Origin: Bacteroidales bacterium
GTDB lineage: Bacteria > Bacteroidota > Bacteroidia > Bacteroidales > Marinilabiliaceae
Assembly: GCA_024401355.1 (NCBI GenBank)
Contig: JAKSLF010000026.1
Coordinates: 1 to 45,629, forward strand
Length of the DNA: 45,629 nt
Direction of reading: 5' to 3'
Below the pieces are notes generated by a model. The model made no database searches, had not been told where the DNA came from, and saw nothing but the letters and a program-made list of their open reading frames with translations. Positions 15,129 through 23,752 of the stretch are shown one piece after another; within the stretch, counting starts at the first letter, position 1; each line of letters opens with the position of its first letter. Made by a program: the position numbers and the translations under genes.

Positions 15129-15161
15129 TATCCCTTGCTTATCCCTTGCTCATCCCTTGCT
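15129..15161. repeat. Three perfect-length 11-bp tandem repeats, [T/C]ATCCCTTGCT
   Basis: Three head-to-tail 11-base units (15129, 15140, 15151), identical apart from the first base of the third. The stop codon of the primase-like gene lies at the junction of the second and third unit, so the gene ends inside the array. Confidence 0.95.
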
Positions 15162-16046
15162 GAATAGTTTTGCTGTGTAAGCCTCGGAATAGTCTTTGAA
15201 GTGTGGTGGCAGATCGTGGCGGACCAAGGTGGGGATCATGTTCCTGAGTTGCAGGAAGAGTTTTTCGCCGGGTAGGTCTCTGTCGGGGAACATGTGGAAT
15301 GAGATGCCACGTTGGGCGAGGCTGTTGAAGAGTGCGATGTCGAAAGGTCGGAGAAGAGTGGCAGACGGGATAGCGATAGCCTTGTGTCCGCTCGAGAGCA
15401 TGGCCCAGCAGTCGGAGCAACCTTCGGTGATGTAGAGTTCGTCGCCGGGACGAAGGAGGTTGGTCACGGGGAGGTTGTAGATGTTGCAAGTGGCTCCGCT
15501 GGGGAATCGGAATCGTGGGAGTGCTCCTGGTGTGAGGTTACGGTTCTGAAATCCGATGAGATTCCACGAGTTGTCGAAGTAAGGTATTTGCAGCCATGGG
15601 TTGTGGTTGCGATCGGTCCATGAGGTTAGTCGGCACCAACTGACGACGCGTGGGTCGATATGCCTCTGGTCGAAGAGGAAGTGCTGTGCCTGTGGATTGA
15701 GGAAAGGCTTTTCGAAGAACCGGAGATATCGTGAGGCGTCGAAGGGTTTAGGCGGTTCGATGGCGGACAGTGGTCGGTATTCGTCGAGAATGATGTTGCT
15801 ACCATTGGCGAGCCAGCGGCAGGCCTGGATGAATGGGAGGTGGAGGTGTTGCATGACGAGGTCGATAGGTCCACCTTTGGCGTCGCAGACGAAGCATCGG
15901 TAGGTGTTGCGTCGGACGGAGAAGGAGAGGCTGGCGTGGTGGTCGTCATGAAAAGGGCAGAGACTTTTGTGTCGTGTAACTCGGAGTCCGAGTCGGTCGG
16001 CAATGGCTTCGATGGGAAGCTGCCTTAATTGCTGTATGTTGGTCAT
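15150..16046 (-). CDS. Primase-like protein with CHC2 zinc finger and Toprim domain
   Basis: A 298-residue protein. The CHC2 zinc finger has Cys30, His33, Cys51 and Cys54 (LCPFHDDHHASL, YRCFVCDAKGG). The Toprim domain has the acidic ELYITEG (Glu208) and FPDRDLPG (Asp255, Asp257), the metal-binding triad of primases. The region between is short and there is no helicase-binding C-terminal domain, so it is not cellular DnaG but a mobile-element primase of the kind found in Bacteroides accessory loci. It lies 5 bases after the DUF3987-like gene and probably works with it in the replication or mobilisation of the element. The gene ends within an 11-bp repeat array. Confidence 0.9.
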   Translation of the reverse strand: MTNIQQLRQLPIEAIADRLGLRVTRHKSLCPFHDDHHASLSFSVRRNTYRCFVCDAKGGPIDLVMQHLHLPFIQACRWLANGSNIILDEYRPLSAIEPPKPFDASRYLRFFEKPFLNPQAQHFLFDQRHIDPRVVSWCRLTSWTDRNHNPWLQIPYFDNSWNLIGFQNRNLTPGALPRFRFPSGATCNIYNLPVTNLLRPGDELYITEGCSDCWAMLSSGHKAIAIPSATLLRPFDIALFNSLAQRGISFHMFPDRDLPGEKLFLQLRNMIPTLVRHDLPPHFKDYSEAYTAKLFSKG

Positions 16047-16051
16047 TGTAA

Positions 16052-17368
16052 TTAAGAATTAAGAGAGTTGCGTTTAAGGTATTCTTCTGTTTTGGTGTAG
16101 AGTCCGGTTTGTGGGGAGAAGGTGATGAACTTGCGTGAGACCCATTTATAGAGTTGATCTCTGGTACCTTCCTTAGTCTTGCCATAGGAGAGTCGGAGAG
16201 CTTCGAGCTGTGCCTGGTTGAAAGTGTCGGGCAGGTCGTCGAGGAGGTTTTTTGGTCCGCGTCGGTGTGTTTCGTCGACGAAGTTGGAATCTTTTATGAG
16301 AAGGTCGGCGAAAAGCTGCATTTTGGACCAGAGGTCGTGGTAGACCATCCACTCGACGAGTTCGCCCATGTGTTTGGTCCATGTTTGGTTGTTGAGTACC
16401 CACATGACGCATCCAGCCTTCCATGCGGAGACGAGTGCACGTTTGGATACATCCCAGAGAGTGTCGTCGTCGGTAAGGTCGGCAAGAGAAGCCATATCTT
16501 GTGCGAGTTTATCGACGAGAGAGTTGAGTCGGCTGATGATGAAACGTCCCTTGCAGGCGTTGAGTCGGATGATGTATTGGTCGAGCTGTGTGTAGAAAGC
16601 ATTATTGTATGTGCCCTGTCGTGGGATACGTCCATCGCGCGAAGTGCGAGGTTTGTAGGAGAAGACCATGCGTCCGAACGTGCCGTTGAAGAGGTCGTTG
16701 CGGTAGAACTTGCGTGAGGCGTAAGGAGTGGAGCTGGCAGTGATGTTGACTCTGAGCAGAGGGTTTCCGGTGACGCCGTCGGCGGTAGCTCGGAGAGCTC
16801 CGGCACGCTGTCGGTCGTATATGTTGCGCATCATCTGTGAAATCTGCTTATGTCCGCCACAGATGCGGTCGGCCATTTCGATCTCTGGCAAGTTGAGGTA
16901 TTGTGTACGTTCGCCGAGAGCTTCGCAAGCCATGGCGTTCTGTATGAAAGCGGCATTGGTGACGTCGGCAGGTGGAATCCAGAAAGCGACTTCTGGTCGT
17001 TGTGGCTTTTCCTTGTTGGCAGCCTTAGTCTTTATCTGCTTCTGCCATTCGACAAGTTTCTGCAGTTCGCTTTCGTCGTGTGAGCGGAAATCGCGGCAGA
17101 TGGCTTCGACGAGATTGGACAATTGTCCCTTGTTTCCACCACTTTCAGCGACTAGGTTGGCCATCATTCCGCAAGGTTCTTTCCAACTAAGGTCGGGATA
17201 TTGAAATTCAGCTCCGCTAAGGTGTGCGCCCAGTATAGGGAAAAGCATAGGAACGATAGGTTCGTACATATCTTTTGAGACCTGTGAGAGGAGGAGTTTG
17301 ATACATTCTGTGCCATTGCCGAGAGAGGGCATTGCAGGTGCAGTTGTTTTTGAAATGTTGTATTTCAT
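16052..17368 (-). CDS. DUF3987/BT4734-like protein, probable replication helper
   Basis: A 438-residue protein resembling the C-terminal DUF3987 part of the BT4734-type proteins of Bacteroides accessory loci. Visible features are the ESGGNKGQLSNLVEAI stretch at about residues 75-90 (a degenerate phosphate-binding loop place), VAFWIPPADVTNAAFIQNA, then GHKQISQMMRNIYDRQRAGALRA and NPLLRVNITASSTPYASRKFY, where a Walker-B-like strand would be expected. The N-terminal VirE-like half of the family is absent and is replaced here by the separate primase-like gene. The C-terminal 100 residues (TFNQAQLEALRLSYGKTKEG) look like a DNA-binding end. A structured inverted repeat lies directly upstream. Confidence 0.7.
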   Translation of the reverse strand: MKYNISKTTAPAMPSLGNGTECIKLLLSQVSKDMYEPIVPMLFPILGAHLSGAEFQYPDLSWKEPCGMMANLVAESGGNKGQLSNLVEAICRDFRSHDESELQKLVEWQKQIKTKAANKEKPQRPEVAFWIPPADVTNAAFIQNAMACEALGERTQYLNLPEIEMADRICGGHKQISQMMRNIYDRQRAGALRATADGVTGNPLLRVNITASSTPYASRKFYRNDLFNGTFGRMVFSYKPRTSRDGRIPRQGTYNNAFYTQLDQYIIRLNACKGRFIISRLNSLVDKLAQDMASLADLTDDDTLWDVSKRALVSAWKAGCVMWVLNNQTWTKHMGELVEWMVYHDLWSKMQLFADLLIKDSNFVDETHRRGPKNLLDDLPDTFNQAQLEALRLSYGKTKEGTRDQLYKWVSRKFITFSPQTGLYTKTEEYLKRNSLNS

Positions 17369-17406
17369 TATAAATGAGTATTTTAGATGAATAAATATTT
17401 TTAAAT

Positions 17407-17558
17407 TCTGACAGTTGACAGTTCTGACAATTAATAATTTGGTGTTATCCCTTTCTTTATATTCTTATATAATTAATTGATATACAATAAGTTATAAGAT
17501 GTATAAAGGGGGAGTTGTGACAGTTGTTTTATAATTGTCAGAACTGTCAGTTGTCAGA
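17407..17558. repeat. Long inverted repeat of TGACA motifs around an AT-rich core
   Basis: The 27-base arms 17407-17433 and 17532-17558 are inverted copies with two adjacent mismatches (GT against AC). Each arm itself holds three spaced TGACA elements, and one further TGACAGTT is at 17518. The 98-base core is AT-rich. It lies between the start of the DUF3987-like gene and the end of the unknown gene at 17564-18031. It could be an iteron-like origin, an operator or a recombination site; the sequence does not decide. Confidence 0.85.
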
Positions 17559-17563
17559 CGAGA

Positions 17564-18031
17564 TTACCATCCGATAGTATCTGTAGGGAAAAGTGCGTTG
17601 TTGTTTTTCTCTACGAGGCTACGGAATCCTTTGATGAGGTCGTGTGCGACGTGGCAAGCATACTGCTGGTAGTTGCTGTGCTGTGTAAGATTGAGCAAGC
17701 GGAGGTTAGGCCGGAGAGTGCCGTCGTCGCGTCTGGTGATGGTGACGAAAGATCCGACGTAGATGCGTGGATTGCGCTTGACAGGCCGTGGCAGGGTCTC
17801 GACGAAGAGGAAATGGTCTTCATCGTCGTTGACGAGAGTGCCGGTGTAGTTTTTACCTGCTACGGCGCTGCGGTCGGTGTGCAGGATGGTCTTGAGGTCG
17901 ACGCAGAGGTGGGTGTTGCGGTACGCCTTGGCGAAATTGTCTTCGCCGTTGTTGAGATAGTGGCGGATGATGTCGCCGATACACTTTGGCTCGTTGATGC
18001 AGGAGCCGGTGTTTTTATATTTGTTGTTCAT
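17564..18031 (-). CDS. Hypothetical protein of the replication module
   Basis: A 155-residue protein that I do not recognise. It starts MNNKYKNTGSCINEPKCIGD, with Cys at 11 and 17, then YLNNGEDNFAKAYRNTHLC. A beta-rich middle (YTGTLVNDDEDHFLFVETLP, RIYVGSFVTITRRDDG) has a shape compatible with a nucleic-acid-binding OB- or SSB-like fold. The C-terminal helix is YACHVAHDLIKGFRSLVEKNNNALF. It is expressed from a promoter near 18150 through a leader with inverted repeats. Being first in the minus-strand module of primase-like and DUF3987-like genes, it may be a DNA-binding accessory, which is inference only. Confidence 0.6.
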   Translation of the reverse strand: MNNKYKNTGSCINEPKCIGDIIRHYLNNGEDNFAKAYRNTHLCVDLKTILHTDRSAVAGKNYTGTLVNDDEDHFLFVETLPRPVKRNPRIYVGSFVTITRRDDGTLRPNLRLLNLTQHSNYQQYACHVAHDLIKGFRSLVEKNNNALFPTDTIGW

Positions 18032-18171: not shown

Positions 18172-18216
18172 GAAAAAAATATGCCGTAACTGTTACGCGT
18201 AACTGTTACGGCATAT
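18172..18216 (-). terminator. Palindromic terminator after the unknown two-gene operon
   Basis: ATATGCCGTAAC and GTTACGGCATAT form a 12-bp perfect stem; the whole is nearly palindromic, with CGTAACTGTTACG occurring twice. On the minus strand it is followed by seven T, so it ends the transcript of the 19959-18246 operon, 30 bases past its stop codon. Confidence 0.85.
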
Positions 18217-18245
18217 GCTAAAATATTAAATATCAAAAATTTGTG

Positions 18246-19052
18246 CTATTGTATCTTTTTGAGTTTGTCTTGGAGTTCGCTTGTTTTTTTCTGATTTAAT
18301 GATCTATTGTAGTATGATCGTAGCGTTTCACCTTTAGTTCCCCATAGTTTTGCAAAAGCAGTCCATGGAGTATTTATTCCAAGACGTTCTGCTATCCAAT
18401 AAGCCAAATAGCTACTATTTGTTTTACTTCCGATAGGTTTATAATTTTGGTCGACTAATTTTGCATCTTGCAGTTTATGCCAAATGTCCATAGCTGCATC
18501 TGAAGCCAGCTCTTCGGGCAAGATTGTTCTTTGAATATCTTTATTGCCGTTCAAATACTGGCCTTGGCTGACATATTGATTGAGAGCGTTGATGAATGAT
18601 TCGTCGATAGAATTAAATAATGGTATGGCTATATCGTCTATGACAGAATGTTCGCTTATTTGATGTATCAGTTTATCTGTATATCGCGTTATCTCATAGA
18701 TATTCATAGCGATTATACATACAATTACCGAATAGACAATACATGAAGTGGCTGTTTCAAGTTCTGTTTCTTCATATTTTCTTCCCTCGTCATTTGCCTC
18801 GTCACGCAAGTCGCAATATATGTCATTCCAGAAATTCTCAATAATGTCGGCAGCCTCATTATGCTGTTTCAGCAGTTCATCAATCTTATACTTACAATTG
18901 ATGAATATCTCCTCGGTCGAGAAGCGCAGAACCTTCATGGATGCCTCTTTATCCTTGTACGCTTCGTTTATCGTTCGATAGATAGGATTGTTTTTATATT
19001 TTTCCCTAACGTTTCGCTTATTCTCTGTAGTCAACAATTTTTTCATAGTCAT
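18246..19052 (-). CDS. Unknown protein, second gene of a candidate defence operon
   Basis: A 268-residue protein. The N-terminal 100 residues are helical and charged (IDELLKQHNEAADIIENFW, DLRDEANDEGRKYEETELE). One hydrophobic segment, SCIVYSVIVCIIAMNIYEI, sits at about 104-122 and may touch the membrane. The C-terminal region from about 190 (AMDIWHKLQDAKLVDQNYKP, IAERLGINTPWTAFAKLWG, LRSYYNRSLNQKK) is a C-terminal helical domain I have seen at the end of many Bacteroidetes accessory proteins, without a known function. It overlaps the first gene by 35 bases, so the two are translationally coupled. A second in-frame ATG two codons on would also serve. No enzymatic motif is seen. Confidence 0.65.
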   Translation of the reverse strand: MTMKKLLTTENKRNVREKYKNNPIYRTINEAYKDKEASMKVLRFSTEEIFINCKYKIDELLKQHNEAADIIENFWNDIYCDLRDEANDEGRKYEETELETATSCIVYSVIVCIIAMNIYEITRYTDKLIHQISEHSVIDDIAIPLFNSIDESFINALNQYVSQGQYLNGNKDIQRTILPEELASDAAMDIWHKLQDAKLVDQNYKPIGSKTNSSYLAYWIAERLGINTPWTAFAKLWGTKGETLRSYYNRSLNQKKTSELQDKLKKIQ

Positions 19053-19959
19053 AGTCAGCTATTTCTTTTCTGATTTCATCAAGCCTTTCTATCAGCTCAT
19101 AAGTTTCACCATTGCCTCTGTTGCAAAGTTGTTTACATTCGAAATCATGGATGGTATTACTATTTATCGAACAGACAGCATAGGCTACATCCTTGAAATT
19201 AATCATAGGAGAATTGTAGAAATAATAACATAGCTTATAGTTGTTTTGAGCGCTTAATGCTATCATTTGAGCCAACTCATCCACCTTTTCTTCATCGATA
19301 AACATAGGTTCTTTTTTTGAACCATATAGCGTAATTTTACCTTTCAGAGCTTTGGTGGCTTGGGTTAATGAACTGAGATACTGAAGTTTCTTTTTCGTCT
19401 GATATGTTGCATCTATGCCTTTTATCTTGTCGGGATTAGGATATTCCCATACAATCTTTTTTACGTTATCATTATTTATGATGCGTCTTTCAACTAGTTC
19501 CTTAAACTTTCCTGCCTGATATTTATGCTTTATGATTATGCTGAGACCATATTCTGAAAGCAATTCATCGAGGGTGCGTTTTAGAAATCTTATAACCTGG
19601 TCGTTTTTGGAATAGAATGCTCCATTCTTCTCCACAAGTATCTGGCATACGTCTTTTCTATTGTCAAAGATGATATAACTACCAGGAAAAGACTCTAGGG
19701 GAGTTTTGTCATGACCTTCAAACTGATTAATTTTTTTCTGGTTGCAAAGAACGAATGTATAAATATCCTCGTCTTCATGACGCTCAAGACTCTTTAGTGG
19801 AATGTCTTGTGTATTTTTCTTTCCAATGATAGGCAATCCTTCATGCAGCAGATTGCCGATGATTTCGTGTGCTTTTTCTATGGTTTTAGTTTTAGTGTCT
19901 TTGTAGAATAGGCTGCGCTCGCCTTCTTGAATTTCGTATGAATATACAGCGTAATCCAT
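19018..19959 (-). CDS. Unknown protein, first gene of a candidate defence operon
   Basis: A 313-residue soluble protein. I chose the ATG at 19959 (MDYAVYSYEIQEGERSLFY); a longer frame only adds AT-rich leader translation. The first 110 residues look beta-rich (YTFVLCNQKKINQFEG). PGSYIIFDNRKDVCQILVEK leads to a helical middle (FLKRTLDELLSEYGLSIIIK, QAGKFKELVERRIINNDNVK). The C-terminal third has KITLYGSKKEPMFIDEEKVD and a charged helix. I recognise no known catalytic motif. The base composition is more AT-rich than the core genes around the island, which suggests transfer. It shares overlapping back-to-back promoters with a short RNA on the other strand. Confidence 0.65.
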   Translation of the reverse strand: MDYAVYSYEIQEGERSLFYKDTKTKTIEKAHEIIGNLLHEGLPIIGKKNTQDIPLKSLERHEDEDIYTFVLCNQKKINQFEGHDKTPLESFPGSYIIFDNRKDVCQILVEKNGAFYSKNDQVIRFLKRTLDELLSEYGLSIIIKHKYQAGKFKELVERRIINNDNVKKIVWEYPNPDKIKGIDATYQTKKKLQYLSSLTQATKALKGKITLYGSKKEPMFIDEEKVDELAQMIALSAQNNYKLCYYFYNSPMINFKDVAYAVCSINSNTIHDFECKQLCNRGNGETYELIERLDEIRKEIADYDYEKIVDYRE

Positions 19960-20026
19960 TTTTATTATTTTTATTAGATTAAGGTTTTTGTTTAATACAA
20001 TCGGTTGATGTTTATTCCTTTTTTTG

Positions 20027-20059
20027 TTTTGTAATGCAAAATAGAGTTTGTAATTTTGC
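20027..20059 (+). promoter_or_regulatory. Promoter of the short RNA
   Basis: TTTTG at 20027-20031, a 19-base spacer and TAATTTTGC at 20051-20059. It has both consensus elements with good spacing. Its predicted start (about 20066) falls inside the -7 box of the opposing promoter. Confidence 0.75.
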
Positions 20060-20064
20060 ACAAT

Positions 20065-20097
20065 CAAAGTTAAAGACAATTTTTGAATTATACAAAA
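20065..20097 (-). promoter_or_regulatory. Promoter of the unknown two-gene operon
   Basis: On the minus strand TTTTG (plus 20093-20097), a 20-base spacer and TAACTTTG (plus 20065-20072). The predicted start is near 20058, leaving a 100-base leader before the ATG at 19959. It overlaps the plus-strand promoter at 20027-20059 so that polymerases on the two would exclude each other. Confidence 0.65.
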
Positions 20098-20169
20098 TAA
20101 AGGGAGCGCATCACTCTAGTTTTGAGAACCTGGTGTTCCTTCGGTTTGATTATACCTCCCTTCTTTTAC

Positions 20170-20198
20170 AAGGACCTCAATTGAGGTCCTTTGTTTTT
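20170..20198 (+). terminator. Terminator of the short RNA
   Basis: AAGGACCTCAA and its exact inverted copy form a perfect 22-base palindrome (20170-20191), followed by TGTTTTTT on the plus strand. There is no T-run on the other side, so it acts for plus-strand transcripts. Confidence 0.88.
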
Positions 20199-20199
20199 T

Positions 20200-22321
20200 C
20201 TACTTCGTCAGCTTTTCGTACCTCTCCATGAGCCAAGCTACTATGTCTTCTTCGGGCATGTCGGGTTTGAGGGCGTAGGCGGCGAGGACGGCTTGGTCGT
20301 TATGGCGGTGGGCTTTGCGGAGCTCGGGTGGCATGGTGACTTCGTCGTAGAGGTCGGCTAGGGAGCTGTCGGGATAGAGGGCACGTGCATCGAGGATGGC
20401 TTGTGCGGTCTGCTCTATCTTCTGCTTCTGGGCGTCGGTCGGTTCGGGCCATGGGAAGTTGTTGTAGACGATAGTGTTCGAATAACTATAACGCATTTCC
20501 AAACGACCGCATACAGCACTCATCCATGCCATGTGCACGTTGCTGGTCAATATTCCGAAATGGTATAGTGTTGCTTCTTGTAACATAAAGAGCTTATCGC
20601 CAGGAATAATATCTTTTGGCAAATATTCCATTGGTATATAGCGCCGTCTCTCTGATGAGACTTTTGGAATGGCAACATAGTCTGTCGTACATTCACGAAC
20701 TTCATCGAAAAGCATCGGGGTTTCTGCTTTTTGACGAGTAGCAGCCTTGGGACTTGCCAGTCTGTAATTCCTGACATTTTCGATACGCTCCATCACTCGA
20801 TTGCATTTACGCAGCTCTGCTGGATTAGCTCCTACCATCCATAGGCAGAACCGTGTTTTACGATCAATGAAATCTTTACCCATCATGTAAGGTCTGAGCC
20901 ACTTTTGAGCAATAGGATTGGCTAGAACAAGGGCTTCTTTCTCTTCTTCTGTCATTATAAGAAATCCTCCTTCTGTAGGCTTACCTCCATTAAGCAGGGT
21001 TGGGACATTACAAATGGGTTTAGTCTTGGCCTCAATGAATATAATCGGACCTTCTGTCAAATAGAAATTGATTTGCTCACATATCTTGTAGTGACCATCG
21101 CTCGAATATAATACAAGAGAATTGTCACTTTTTATTACAGAGAACCCGATAATCACACAATGGACGTGAGCTTTCAAGGCCGACTCGCTATCCCATCGGA
21201 ATGTACGCCATGCGAAGTCGATATGTATGCCAAAGCGTGTCATGATAGGTTTCCAGATTGCAGCCACCTGCTCGCCTTGAGTTATAGAGTTGGTCGATAC
21301 GAGAGCCGCATGTATCTTGTCGTTTTTCTGCATTAATTCTGATGCCTTCCAATACCATGCACTCACGTAGTCTATCTTGCCTGCTGTCTTGTATGGTTTA
21401 CCTTTCTCGTCAACAAAGATGCTAAGCATATCTTCCTTTTGAGATGCACTTTGAAGCGAATACCCCACAAATGGAGGGTTACCGATGATATAATCGAGCT
21501 CTTCGGCCTTTATGACCTCGTTCCAATCTATGCGGAGAGCGTTGCATTCGCGGATGTTGTTGTAGGGTTTGAGTGGGAGGAAGTCGTTGTTGAAGCGGAT
21601 AATCTTTTCTGTTTCGCGCAGCATCTGGCTTTCGGCAATCCAGAGGGCTGTAGAGGCTACGGTAACGGCGAAGTCGTTGATCTCGATGCCATACATCTGC
21701 TGTATGCTGACCTTCACGGGGCTAGCCTCCTCGAAGCCGAGAATGGTCTGTCCGTCGGTCATCTGCTCGATGATGTCGTTTTCGAGTCGGCGGAGCGACA
21801 TATATGTTTCCGTCAGGAAGTTGCCCGAGCCACAAGCGGGGTCGAGGAAATGGAGGCTGGCCATATCGTCTTGCATAGCCTTGAGGGCGTTGGTCTTCTG
21901 CTTGCCGCGAGGCATAGCCTTGACGGTGCTGAAGCGGTCGCGCAGGCTGTCCATGAAGAGTGGGTCGATGACCTTGTGGATATTCTCTATGGAAGTATAG
22001 TGCATGCCACCGGAGCGACGAGTCTCGGGGTTGAGAGTGCTCTCGAACACGGCTCCGAAGATGGTAGGCGAAATCTCGCTCCAGTCGAAATCCATGGAAG
22101 CATGGTTGAGCAGCAGACTAGCCGTTTCGTCGGTAAGAGGTGGAATACTCTCGCCCTCGCGCTGGCGGAAGAGCGAACCGTTGACGTAGGGGAAGTCGGC
22201 CAGCTTCTTCTCGAGAAACTTGTCGCGCTTGTCAACAGGCGTGTCGAGCACGGCAAAGAGGTCGCGCAAGGCGATGCGCATATTTTCGGGCTTGAACGAA
22301 GCGAGGTAGTCGTGGAACTGG
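20200..22321 (-). pseudogene. DNA methyltransferase of the MmeI-like (type IIL) family, N-terminus deleted
   Basis: Methyltransferase and target-recognition parts of a large single-chain restriction-modification enzyme. The frame starts only at the junction near 22321. The first ATG (22281) gives 693 residues; whole members have about 900 or more with an N-terminal nuclease and helical spacer. The frame upstream of that ATG still matches the family (FHDYLASFKPEN) up to the break. FLDPACGSGNFLTETY is the SAM motif I, and IIGNPPFVGYSLQ is the adenine-methylase motif IV. The target-recognition region and C-terminal LADLYDEVTMPPELRKAH are intact. The break is a fusion to another gene, so this is a deletion remnant; it might still be expressed but would lack the nuclease and probably be inactive. 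Confidence 0.85.
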
Positions 22322-22466: not shown

Positions 22467-23204
22467 TTAAATATTAAAGTTATTTAAAATAGTAATAGCA
22501 GAAGGTGATATGGGTTCTCCCGTCCAAACTGCTACGTTATTTGGGACGTTTATATCTTTATAATAGACGTTTTTTGTCTTTGTAGTATCTATCTTTAGTA
22601 CAGTCCAACTATCATATCGTTTTTCAGACTGTTTTGCGTAATTTTTGCAAGCATTCACTACTATGTCTTCAGTAATATTCAAAAGATATACTCTTTCAGG
22701 ATAATTGAACACTGTTGCACATTGAGACCTAGCAGTCAAACCTACATTCATTATCTTTTTGACATTCTTCGTTGGTGTCACATGATATAATGTTTTTGGT
22801 ACAGATACTTCATTCTGAAACTTTGCTTCTATAAAGAATACACTTCCAGTGCTATTTTCAAAATTATAGTCCTTAGATGTTATGTTTCCTGTCTTTACTG
22901 TTGCTATGTACCATCCGTATGATGCCAGTTCTGATTTTAGATTATTAAATTTTTCTTTATCAAAACCAACGGTGAAAAGAGTGACTTCATACTCTGAATC
23001 TCTCATTACTACTCCATAGTGTTTCAACTTGGCGCTAACGAAACTTACGGGATATGATGACATGAGTCCTTCATTTATATCATAAGAACAAGGTATATGA
23101 TAGAACTCACAATTATCTATATAATAATCATTGCATGTTGGAATGAGCATAAACTCAAACTCATCATGAGATTGCATAATATTCAATTCTGATAATTTCT
23201 TCAT
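22467..23204 (-). CDS. Putative ADP-ribosyltransferase/Tpt1-like protein
   Basis: A 245-residue protein. The C-terminal half resembles the small ADP-ribosyl- or phosphotransferase fold (Tpt1/KptA, DarT-like, and related accessory proteins): LYHVTPTKNVKKIMNVGLTA (about 139-158, with His141) and FNYPERVYLLN (about 166-176) match the usual Tyr-His-x-Thr and Arg-Ile/Val-Tyr motifs. The N-terminal 120 residues are of another, unknown fold (FMLIPTCNDYYIDNCEFYHI). This is a motif-level call without a search. It may modify nucleic acid or protein in a conflict role, since it lies next to a broken methyltransferase. The next gene, now a fragment, could have been its partner or antidote. Confidence 0.55.
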   Translation of the reverse strand: MKKLSELNIMQSHDEFEFMLIPTCNDYYIDNCEFYHIPCSYDINEGLMSSYPVSFVSAKLKHYGVVMRDSEYEVTLFTVGFDKEKFNNLKSELASYGWYIATVKTGNITSKDYNFENSTGSVFFIEAKFQNEVSVPKTLYHVTPTKNVKKIMNVGLTARSQCATVFNYPERVYLLNITEDIVVNACKNYAKQSEKRYDSWTVLKIDTTKTKNVYYKDINVPNNVAVWTGEPISPSAITILNNFNI

Positions 23205-23305: not shown

Positions 23306-23752
23306 TTATTCTTCTTCTCCGCCGTCAACTCCCATTTTACAGCCGCATACACATGTAGGCATACCCGGGTGCTCTTCAGCAGATTTCTTCGAGGTCTTAA
23401 GTTCAAAGCCACACTCTGGACAGAAATAGACTACGGTATTAGTCTTCTTTTCCTTTTCCTCTGAGTCCTTCTTTGCAGGCGTTGTGATGGCTACACCCGG
23501 CCACTCGCCATGAGCTGCAATAAGCTTCTCAAGAACACCATTCAACGTAGACTCCAGTATATCACTCATCTGATAGTCAGTCTTCTTATCAACAAAGCCA
23601 ACTTCCTCAGCTTTAAGTTTGAACTGCTTGGAATGACGAGAACTCATTGTCTCATACGCATGAATAAGCTCATGTGTTATAGCAGCCAAGATATGTATCG
23701 GCTCCTTGATAAGAGGTGAGATAAATACAGTAGGTGGGAAGAAGTCATCCAT
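23306..23752 (-). CDS. SprT-like zinc metalloprotein with a C-terminal zinc ribbon, probably N-terminally shortened
   Basis: A 148-residue protein. HELIHAYE at 27-34 is the zinc peptidase motif with a further His at 40 (MSSRHSKQF), as in SprT/Spartan-type proteins. The end has a zinc ribbon, CPECGFELK and CVCGCKMG. Whole family members have about 40-60 residues before the HExxH region; here it starts almost at the motif, and the frame upstream closes after a few codons, so the gene is probably cut at its 5' end. These proteins often occur in phages and mobile elements; the family digests DNA-protein crosslinks in the eukaryotic branch. The role here is not known. Confidence 0.7.
   Translation of the reverse strand: MDDFFPPTVFISPLIKEPIHILAAITHELIHAYETMSSRHSKQFKLKAEEVGFVDKKTDYQMSDILESTLNGVLEKLIAAHGEWPGVAITTPAKKDSEEKEKKTNTVVYFCPECGFELKTSKKSAEEHPGMPTCVCGCKMGVDGGEEE

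Follow-up and report, generated by a model that had tools for sequence, protein, structure and literature searches.

A conserved, unnamed gene pair with an exchangeable tail beside an MmeI-like gene: a candidate anti-phage module in a Bacteroidales genome

The stretch of DNA analysed here (the window, 45,629 nucleotides (nt), contig JAKSLF010000026.1 of assembly GCA_024401355.1, from a Bacteroidales bacterium of the Marinilabiliaceae) carries on its minus strand an operon of two unrecognised genes, gene1 and gene2. Gene1 (19018..19959) encodes 313 amino acids (aa) and gene2 (18246..19052) encodes 268 aa, and the two share 35 nt (19018..19052), as the initial annotation had stated. Low-confidence structure models suggest an alpha/beta protein for gene1 and a helical protein for gene2. 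Within the gene2 protein, a conserved N-domain (residues 1-172) is followed by an exchangeable C-module (residues 173-268), called the tail below. The putative operon promoter lies at 20065..20096 (-), and the operon ends in a hairpin at 18179..18216 (-) with a T-run on the minus strand. The 12-bp terminator proposed for this end is present as the outer stem of a 19+19 inverted repeat that is 95% complementary (fold z -5.4). At 38 bases this near-perfect palindrome is longer than usual for terminators.

Relatives were searched for with the single gene1 sequence and then with a three-row alignment. In one related family 19 of 201 genomes have a gene1 match, and across the phylum 3 of 395 do (including the window's own genome and G393). 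A sample of the order gave matches in 5 of 393 genomes, two of them dropped as spurious, and among 100 close relatives a gene1 match came only from the window's genome, besides one spurious hit. In the window's own family, gene2 was found in 1 of 71 genomes, which is the window's genome itself. With 19 of 201 genomes in another family against 1 of 71 in its own, the operon has a patchy spread. Single-sequence scans of the genome contig and viral contig collections found no relative, and narrower alignments added only one viral contig (L036/L068). The resulting 27 gene1 loci are the window, L007 and L012-L036. Two further hits, L002 and L009 (E 4.7e-4 and 8.1e-4), were rejected as gene1 relatives, as by eye they lie in an apparent histidine kinase and glycosyltransferase; they are part of the working profile, not of alignment A3, and are left out of all counts. 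One genome, G980, holds three different gene1 loci (L019, L032, L035).

A gene of the gene2 family stands alongside gene1 at 23 of the 27 loci, 16 of them, the closer pairs, in alignment A4 and 7 in alignment A12. The two alignments are joined by an N-domain match in hhalign (probability 91.7%, E 7.6e-7), and L021 and L032 were assigned to the family from the A12 alignment only. Gene1 and gene2 overlap in all 16 A4 pairs, by 26, 26, 32, 35 (four pairs), 44, 47, 50, 68, 83 (four pairs) and 92 nt. These lengths depend on the start codons chosen, and every one of them leaves a remainder of 2 when divided by three, so the relative frame of the two genes is constant. At three other loci (L007, L013, L036) gene1 is partnered by a protein of about 150 aa that is hydrophobic and, read by eye, probably a membrane protein. 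L036 is itself a contig of the viral collection (IMGVR_UViG_2585427664_000001) that carries gene1 with this small hydrophobic partner. The two genes are thus a conserved pair.

The pair is also unnamed: the operon proteins have no convincing match in Pfam (26 gene1 and 16 gene2 members scanned), PADLOC (three gene1 proteins), NCBIfam (one gene2 protein) or PHROGs (the two window proteins). Comparison with solved structures likewise gave no convincing match, the best being E 0.9 for A3 and E 0.017 for A4 (a Parp14 fragment). Four family matches were set aside as chance-level: iSTAND on the window's gene2 (E 0.0057), LegP on one of 26 gene1 members (E 0.0016), PglZ on one of 16 gene2 members (E 0.0044) and BSMAP on one of 26 members (E 0.0085). 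A literature search by words, not by sequence, surfaced no paper on the pair.

The two parts of gene2 have different histories. Identities in gene1 and in the gene2 N-domain co-vary closely (Mantel r 0.94, reached in 0 of 2000 permutations) and those in the tails less so (r 0.73, also 0 of 2000). L022 and L028 share 21% of gene1 and 19% of the N-domain but 53% of the tail, and for L030 and L031 the values are 57%, 44% and 73%. The reverse is seen in L028 and L030 (74%, 60% and 22%) and between the window and five relatives (gene1 55-57%, N-domain 33-44%, tail 12-16%). At E 0.01, fifteen A4 tails sort into four groups, with one tail standing alone. The window's tail recurs in L027 and, at 34% identity, on an unrelated N-terminus elsewhere in the window's own genome (L006, 667-1797 (+)), a locus that had entered the gene2 working profile through this tail. 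The gene2 tail is exchanged independently of the conserved core.

In L019, L021 and L024 gene2 is followed by a separate third gene, near whose N-terminus a short motif from near the gene2 C-terminus recurs. The motif score was reached in 6, 29 and 38 of 1000 shuffles for the three pairs, respectively, which is weak statistically, and for L021 gene2 the score is 42 with the L019 tail, close to the 43 reached with its own tail. The tail of the L021 third gene did not match the tail profile of L022, L026 and L028 (E 0.3). We regard the repeated motif as a lead, not a result.

Upstream of the operon lies a gene for an MmeI-like type IIG protein (20200..22281, minus strand), the broken methyltransferase of the initial annotation. 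The methyltransferase, target-recognition and C-terminal domains are present. The PADLOC model match begins only at position 229 of 912, so the protein lacks its N-terminal part (about the first 228 model positions). Restriction-modification (R-M) genes recur beside the pair elsewhere. A gene with PF02384 (N6_Mtase) or PF00145 (DNA_methylase) lies within 3 kb at 13 of the 26 loci in genomes, against 0.34 expected from the density of methyltransferase genes in the same genomes; this is the genomic association with defence genes by which an anti-phage system may be recognised. Seven more loci have an R-M gene nearby (EcoRI methylase, N6_N4_Mtase in three, Eco57I, HSDR_N and the MmeI-like gene of the window), giving 20 of 26; these seven come from hand-picked scans without a null expectation.

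Downstream of the operon, a conserved block at 15150..18031 (-) comprises genes for a 155-aa protein, a 438-aa protein and a primase-like CHC2 zinc-finger protein. A gene for 434-438 aa and one for a CHC2 zinc-finger protein, recognised by eye at the loci outside the window, follow the pair at 11 of 27 loci, beside R-M cargo that changes from locus to locus, and this block is a shared landing place. A mobile element may be present at this site; no integrase was found, nor, between the two tRNA genes, any direct repeat of at least 18 bases marking element ends.

The initial annotation had singled out the operon as a possible new system, and the conserved pair, the methyltransferase linkage and the tail exchange strengthen that proposal. 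Our best explanation, to which we give about an even chance on sequence grounds, is that the operon is an R-M-linked two-protein anti-phage module, most likely spread horizontally, whose core is conserved and whose tail is exchangeable. The core, suggested by co-divergence, would be a complex of gene1 with the N-terminal half of gene2, and the C-terminal half would be its effector or set its specificity. A few relatives carry the tail as a third gene of its own, and distant ones pair gene1 instead with the small hydrophobic, probably membrane, partner. The core would sense that the cell is infected or that the neighbouring R-M system has failed, and would then switch on the tail or the membrane partner, leading to a growth stop of the infected cell as a back-up defence. 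Such a division into a sensing core and an acting tail or partner agrees with the R-M setting, with the exchange of tails and with the hydrophobic protein that serves as an alternative partner. A more far-reaching version seems quite improbable: a combinatorial signalosome in which gene1 and the gene2 N-domain would be a universal sensing core watching R-M systems of any type, with interchangeable outputs (a fused tail, a third gene recruited through a self-matching motif, or a membrane protein).

Several observations weigh against an R-M-linked anti-phage module. One locus (L033) has no recognised gene1 partner, and gene1 and gene2 are divergent in L054 and reversed in order in L057. No recognised catalytic motif was found in the pair, and the structure models, with a mean predicted local distance difference test (pLDDT) of 37.6 for gene1 (two sequences) and 40.4 for gene2 (single sequence), were too poor for a fold search. 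Six of the 26 loci have no recognised R-M gene nearby; one of them, L010, carries a helicase of the ResIII type and an AAA ATPase. For the methyltransferase linkage, the nominal P of 1e-18 treats loci as independent although some are close relatives. As R-M genes cluster with other cargo in any case, the linkage indicates a defence setting and not a functional tie. Finally, since the MmeI-like gene is truncated, there is perhaps no restriction activity to guard in the window.

Back-up systems linked to R-M are known, among them PARIS (PMC9122126) and PrrC (PMC2610378). By the account in PMC9122126, PARIS resembles the present pair in the way it works: AriA and AriB form a two-gene module in mobile-element hotspots with R-M systems and act as a second line after anti-restriction. 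AriA, however, belongs to the AAA+ ATPases and AriB to the DUF4435 proteins, and Pfam matched neither in 26 gene1 and 16 gene2 members; membership in PARIS was rejected on these scans and those with PADLOC. The likeness to PrrC with EcoprrI is also one of working only, as PMC2610378 describes it as R-M-linked and released by an anti-restriction factor; PrrC is one ATPase/anticodon-nuclease protein, whereas the pair consists of two proteins without such a match. Kiwa was considered because gene1 occurs with a small hydrophobic protein in three relatives, as KwaB does with KwaA (L069, L070), but the gene order is reversed. No PF16162 was found in 26 gene1 members, a family search gave no match in G000, and hhalign of gene1 against two KwaB proteins gave a probability of 0.4% (a small template). 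Gene2 is not hydrophobic, as KwaA would be, and the hydrophobic partner of the three relatives reached 0.2% against two KwaA proteins. By these comparisons of sequence the pair is neither PARIS nor PrrC, and it is not Kiwa. The motif across the end of gene2 and the start of the third gene in L019, L021 and L024 recalls, with its weak statistics, the paired amyloid motifs in co-located genes that PMC12261475 describes for bacterial amyloid signalling sequences (BASS); the pair loci differ in having no NLR receptor.

Among other explanations is a toxin–antitoxin pair, made up of a toxic protein and one that neutralises it, with the tail serving as the toxin or as its address. The tight overlap of the two genes, their place on an accessory island, the exchange of partners and a promoter and terminator of their own would agree with it. 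We consider it unlikely, given the large size of both proteins (313 and 268 aa) and the lack of a convincing match to any toxin or antitoxin model. We also doubt that the pair serves the adjacent R-M or mobile block as an accessory (a regulator, an anti-silencing factor or a DNA-replication helper) with no defence role of its own. The recurrence of the same 438-aa and CHC2 genes after the pair at 11 of 27 loci speaks for such a role, but the block is absent from the other 16 within the stretch fetched, and the R-M neighbours belong to many unrelated types.

The third explanation concerns a putative short plus-strand transcript (20065..20198), which the initial annotation had described as a structured RNA that competes with the operon for transcription. 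Its promoter at 20028..20058 (+) consists of TTTG at 20028-20031, a 19-base spacer and TAATTTTG at 20051-20058; the operon promoter on the minus strand has TTTG at 20096-20093, a 20-base spacer and TAACTTTG at 20072-20065. Both follow the pattern TTTG-N19-21-TANNTTTG, which we take to be the Bacteroidota -33/-7 promoter consensus, and they are two of its eight full matches on both strands of the window. The opposed arrangement and the -33 spacings of 19-20 bases are as first proposed, with the correction that the plus box ends at 20058 and the -7 boxes are 6 bases apart instead of 5. In dinucleotide-preserving shuffles of 19960-20199 the two promoters together appeared in 0 of 5000, with a plus match in 2.2% and a minus match in 0.2%, so this promoter pair is unlikely to have arisen by chance. 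The predicted transcripts start about 7 bases apart and diverge without overlap. From this geometry it follows that the polymerases would be predicted to exclude each other, and also that the transcripts would not pair as antisense RNA. The plus-strand terminator at 20170..20191 is, as claimed, perfect (an 11+11 inverted repeat with a T-run).

The claimed RNA structure did not hold. With the terminator, 20064-20200 folds better than shuffles (z -3.2); without it, 20066-20166 does no better than they do (z +0.16), and the core at 20096-20166 gives z -0.98. A 12+12 inverted repeat, 83% complementary, encloses the core and may form a loose closing stem. Rfam gave no match over threshold. No relative of the RNA was found by sequence search at the 26 other gene1 loci. 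Among the matches listed for 60 other genomes, three partial ones have E < 1e-3, all within the first 42 AT-rich bases, and 294 other genomes of the order gave a single 39-base match at the end of an apparent uvrA gene (read by eye). No record of the plasmid and phage collections covers 80% of the RNA query, and E. coli genomes gave no match, so that the RNA is known as one sequence only.

Operons without the RNA and its promoter had been named beforehand as evidence against RNA control, and this is what was found: the RNA has no sequence relative at the 26 other gene1 loci, and in the 300 bp upstream of gene1 the two full promoters occur together at 0 of 25 other loci examined. In L027 and L028 a full opposed promoter in this stretch is directed at a divergent R-M-type gene. 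We therefore reject the RNA as a conserved element, and the result does not support placing the pair among the RNA-controlled toxin–antitoxin or abortive-infection (Abi) systems (types I/III), in which an RNA is conserved with the protein genes. Although the opposed promoters and terminator exceed chance and no annotated gene besides the RNA would need that terminator, control of the operon by this RNA, as an antitoxin RNA or through promoter competition, is very improbable, and neither a self-contained cassette under RNA control nor an RNA-controlled toxin is supported. The RNA may still be special to the window's lineage, since the nearest relative operon is only 57% identical in gene1 and the genomes searched include one per species. 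The plus-strand terminator, which has no plus-strand gene before it, does suggest that something is transcribed here. The simplest and most likely account is a short, terminator-insulated product of a bidirectional promoter, whose terminator would keep antisense transcription out of the MmeI-like gene; the RNA is probably not a functional part of the two-gene module.

Returning to an R-M-linked module with core and tail, we consider the pair a good candidate for a new system of defence against viruses. Should it protect against phage, it would be a defence family unnamed in the four model libraries scanned and present in 19 of 201 genomes of one family, and its tail exchanges would provide natural chimeras of core and output for separating the sensing from the acting part. 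A link between restriction and back-up immunity would also become testable across many unrelated R-M types. Beyond the MmeI-like gene, the window encodes a 148-aa protein (23306-23752, minus strand) with a sub-threshold SprT-like match (E 0.0021). A 245-aa protein at 22467-23204 (-) matches RNA 2'-phosphotransferase phrog_5470 (E 5.3e-5) and, more weakly, PTS_2-RNA, and it may be a protein of the ADP-ribosyltransferase fold.

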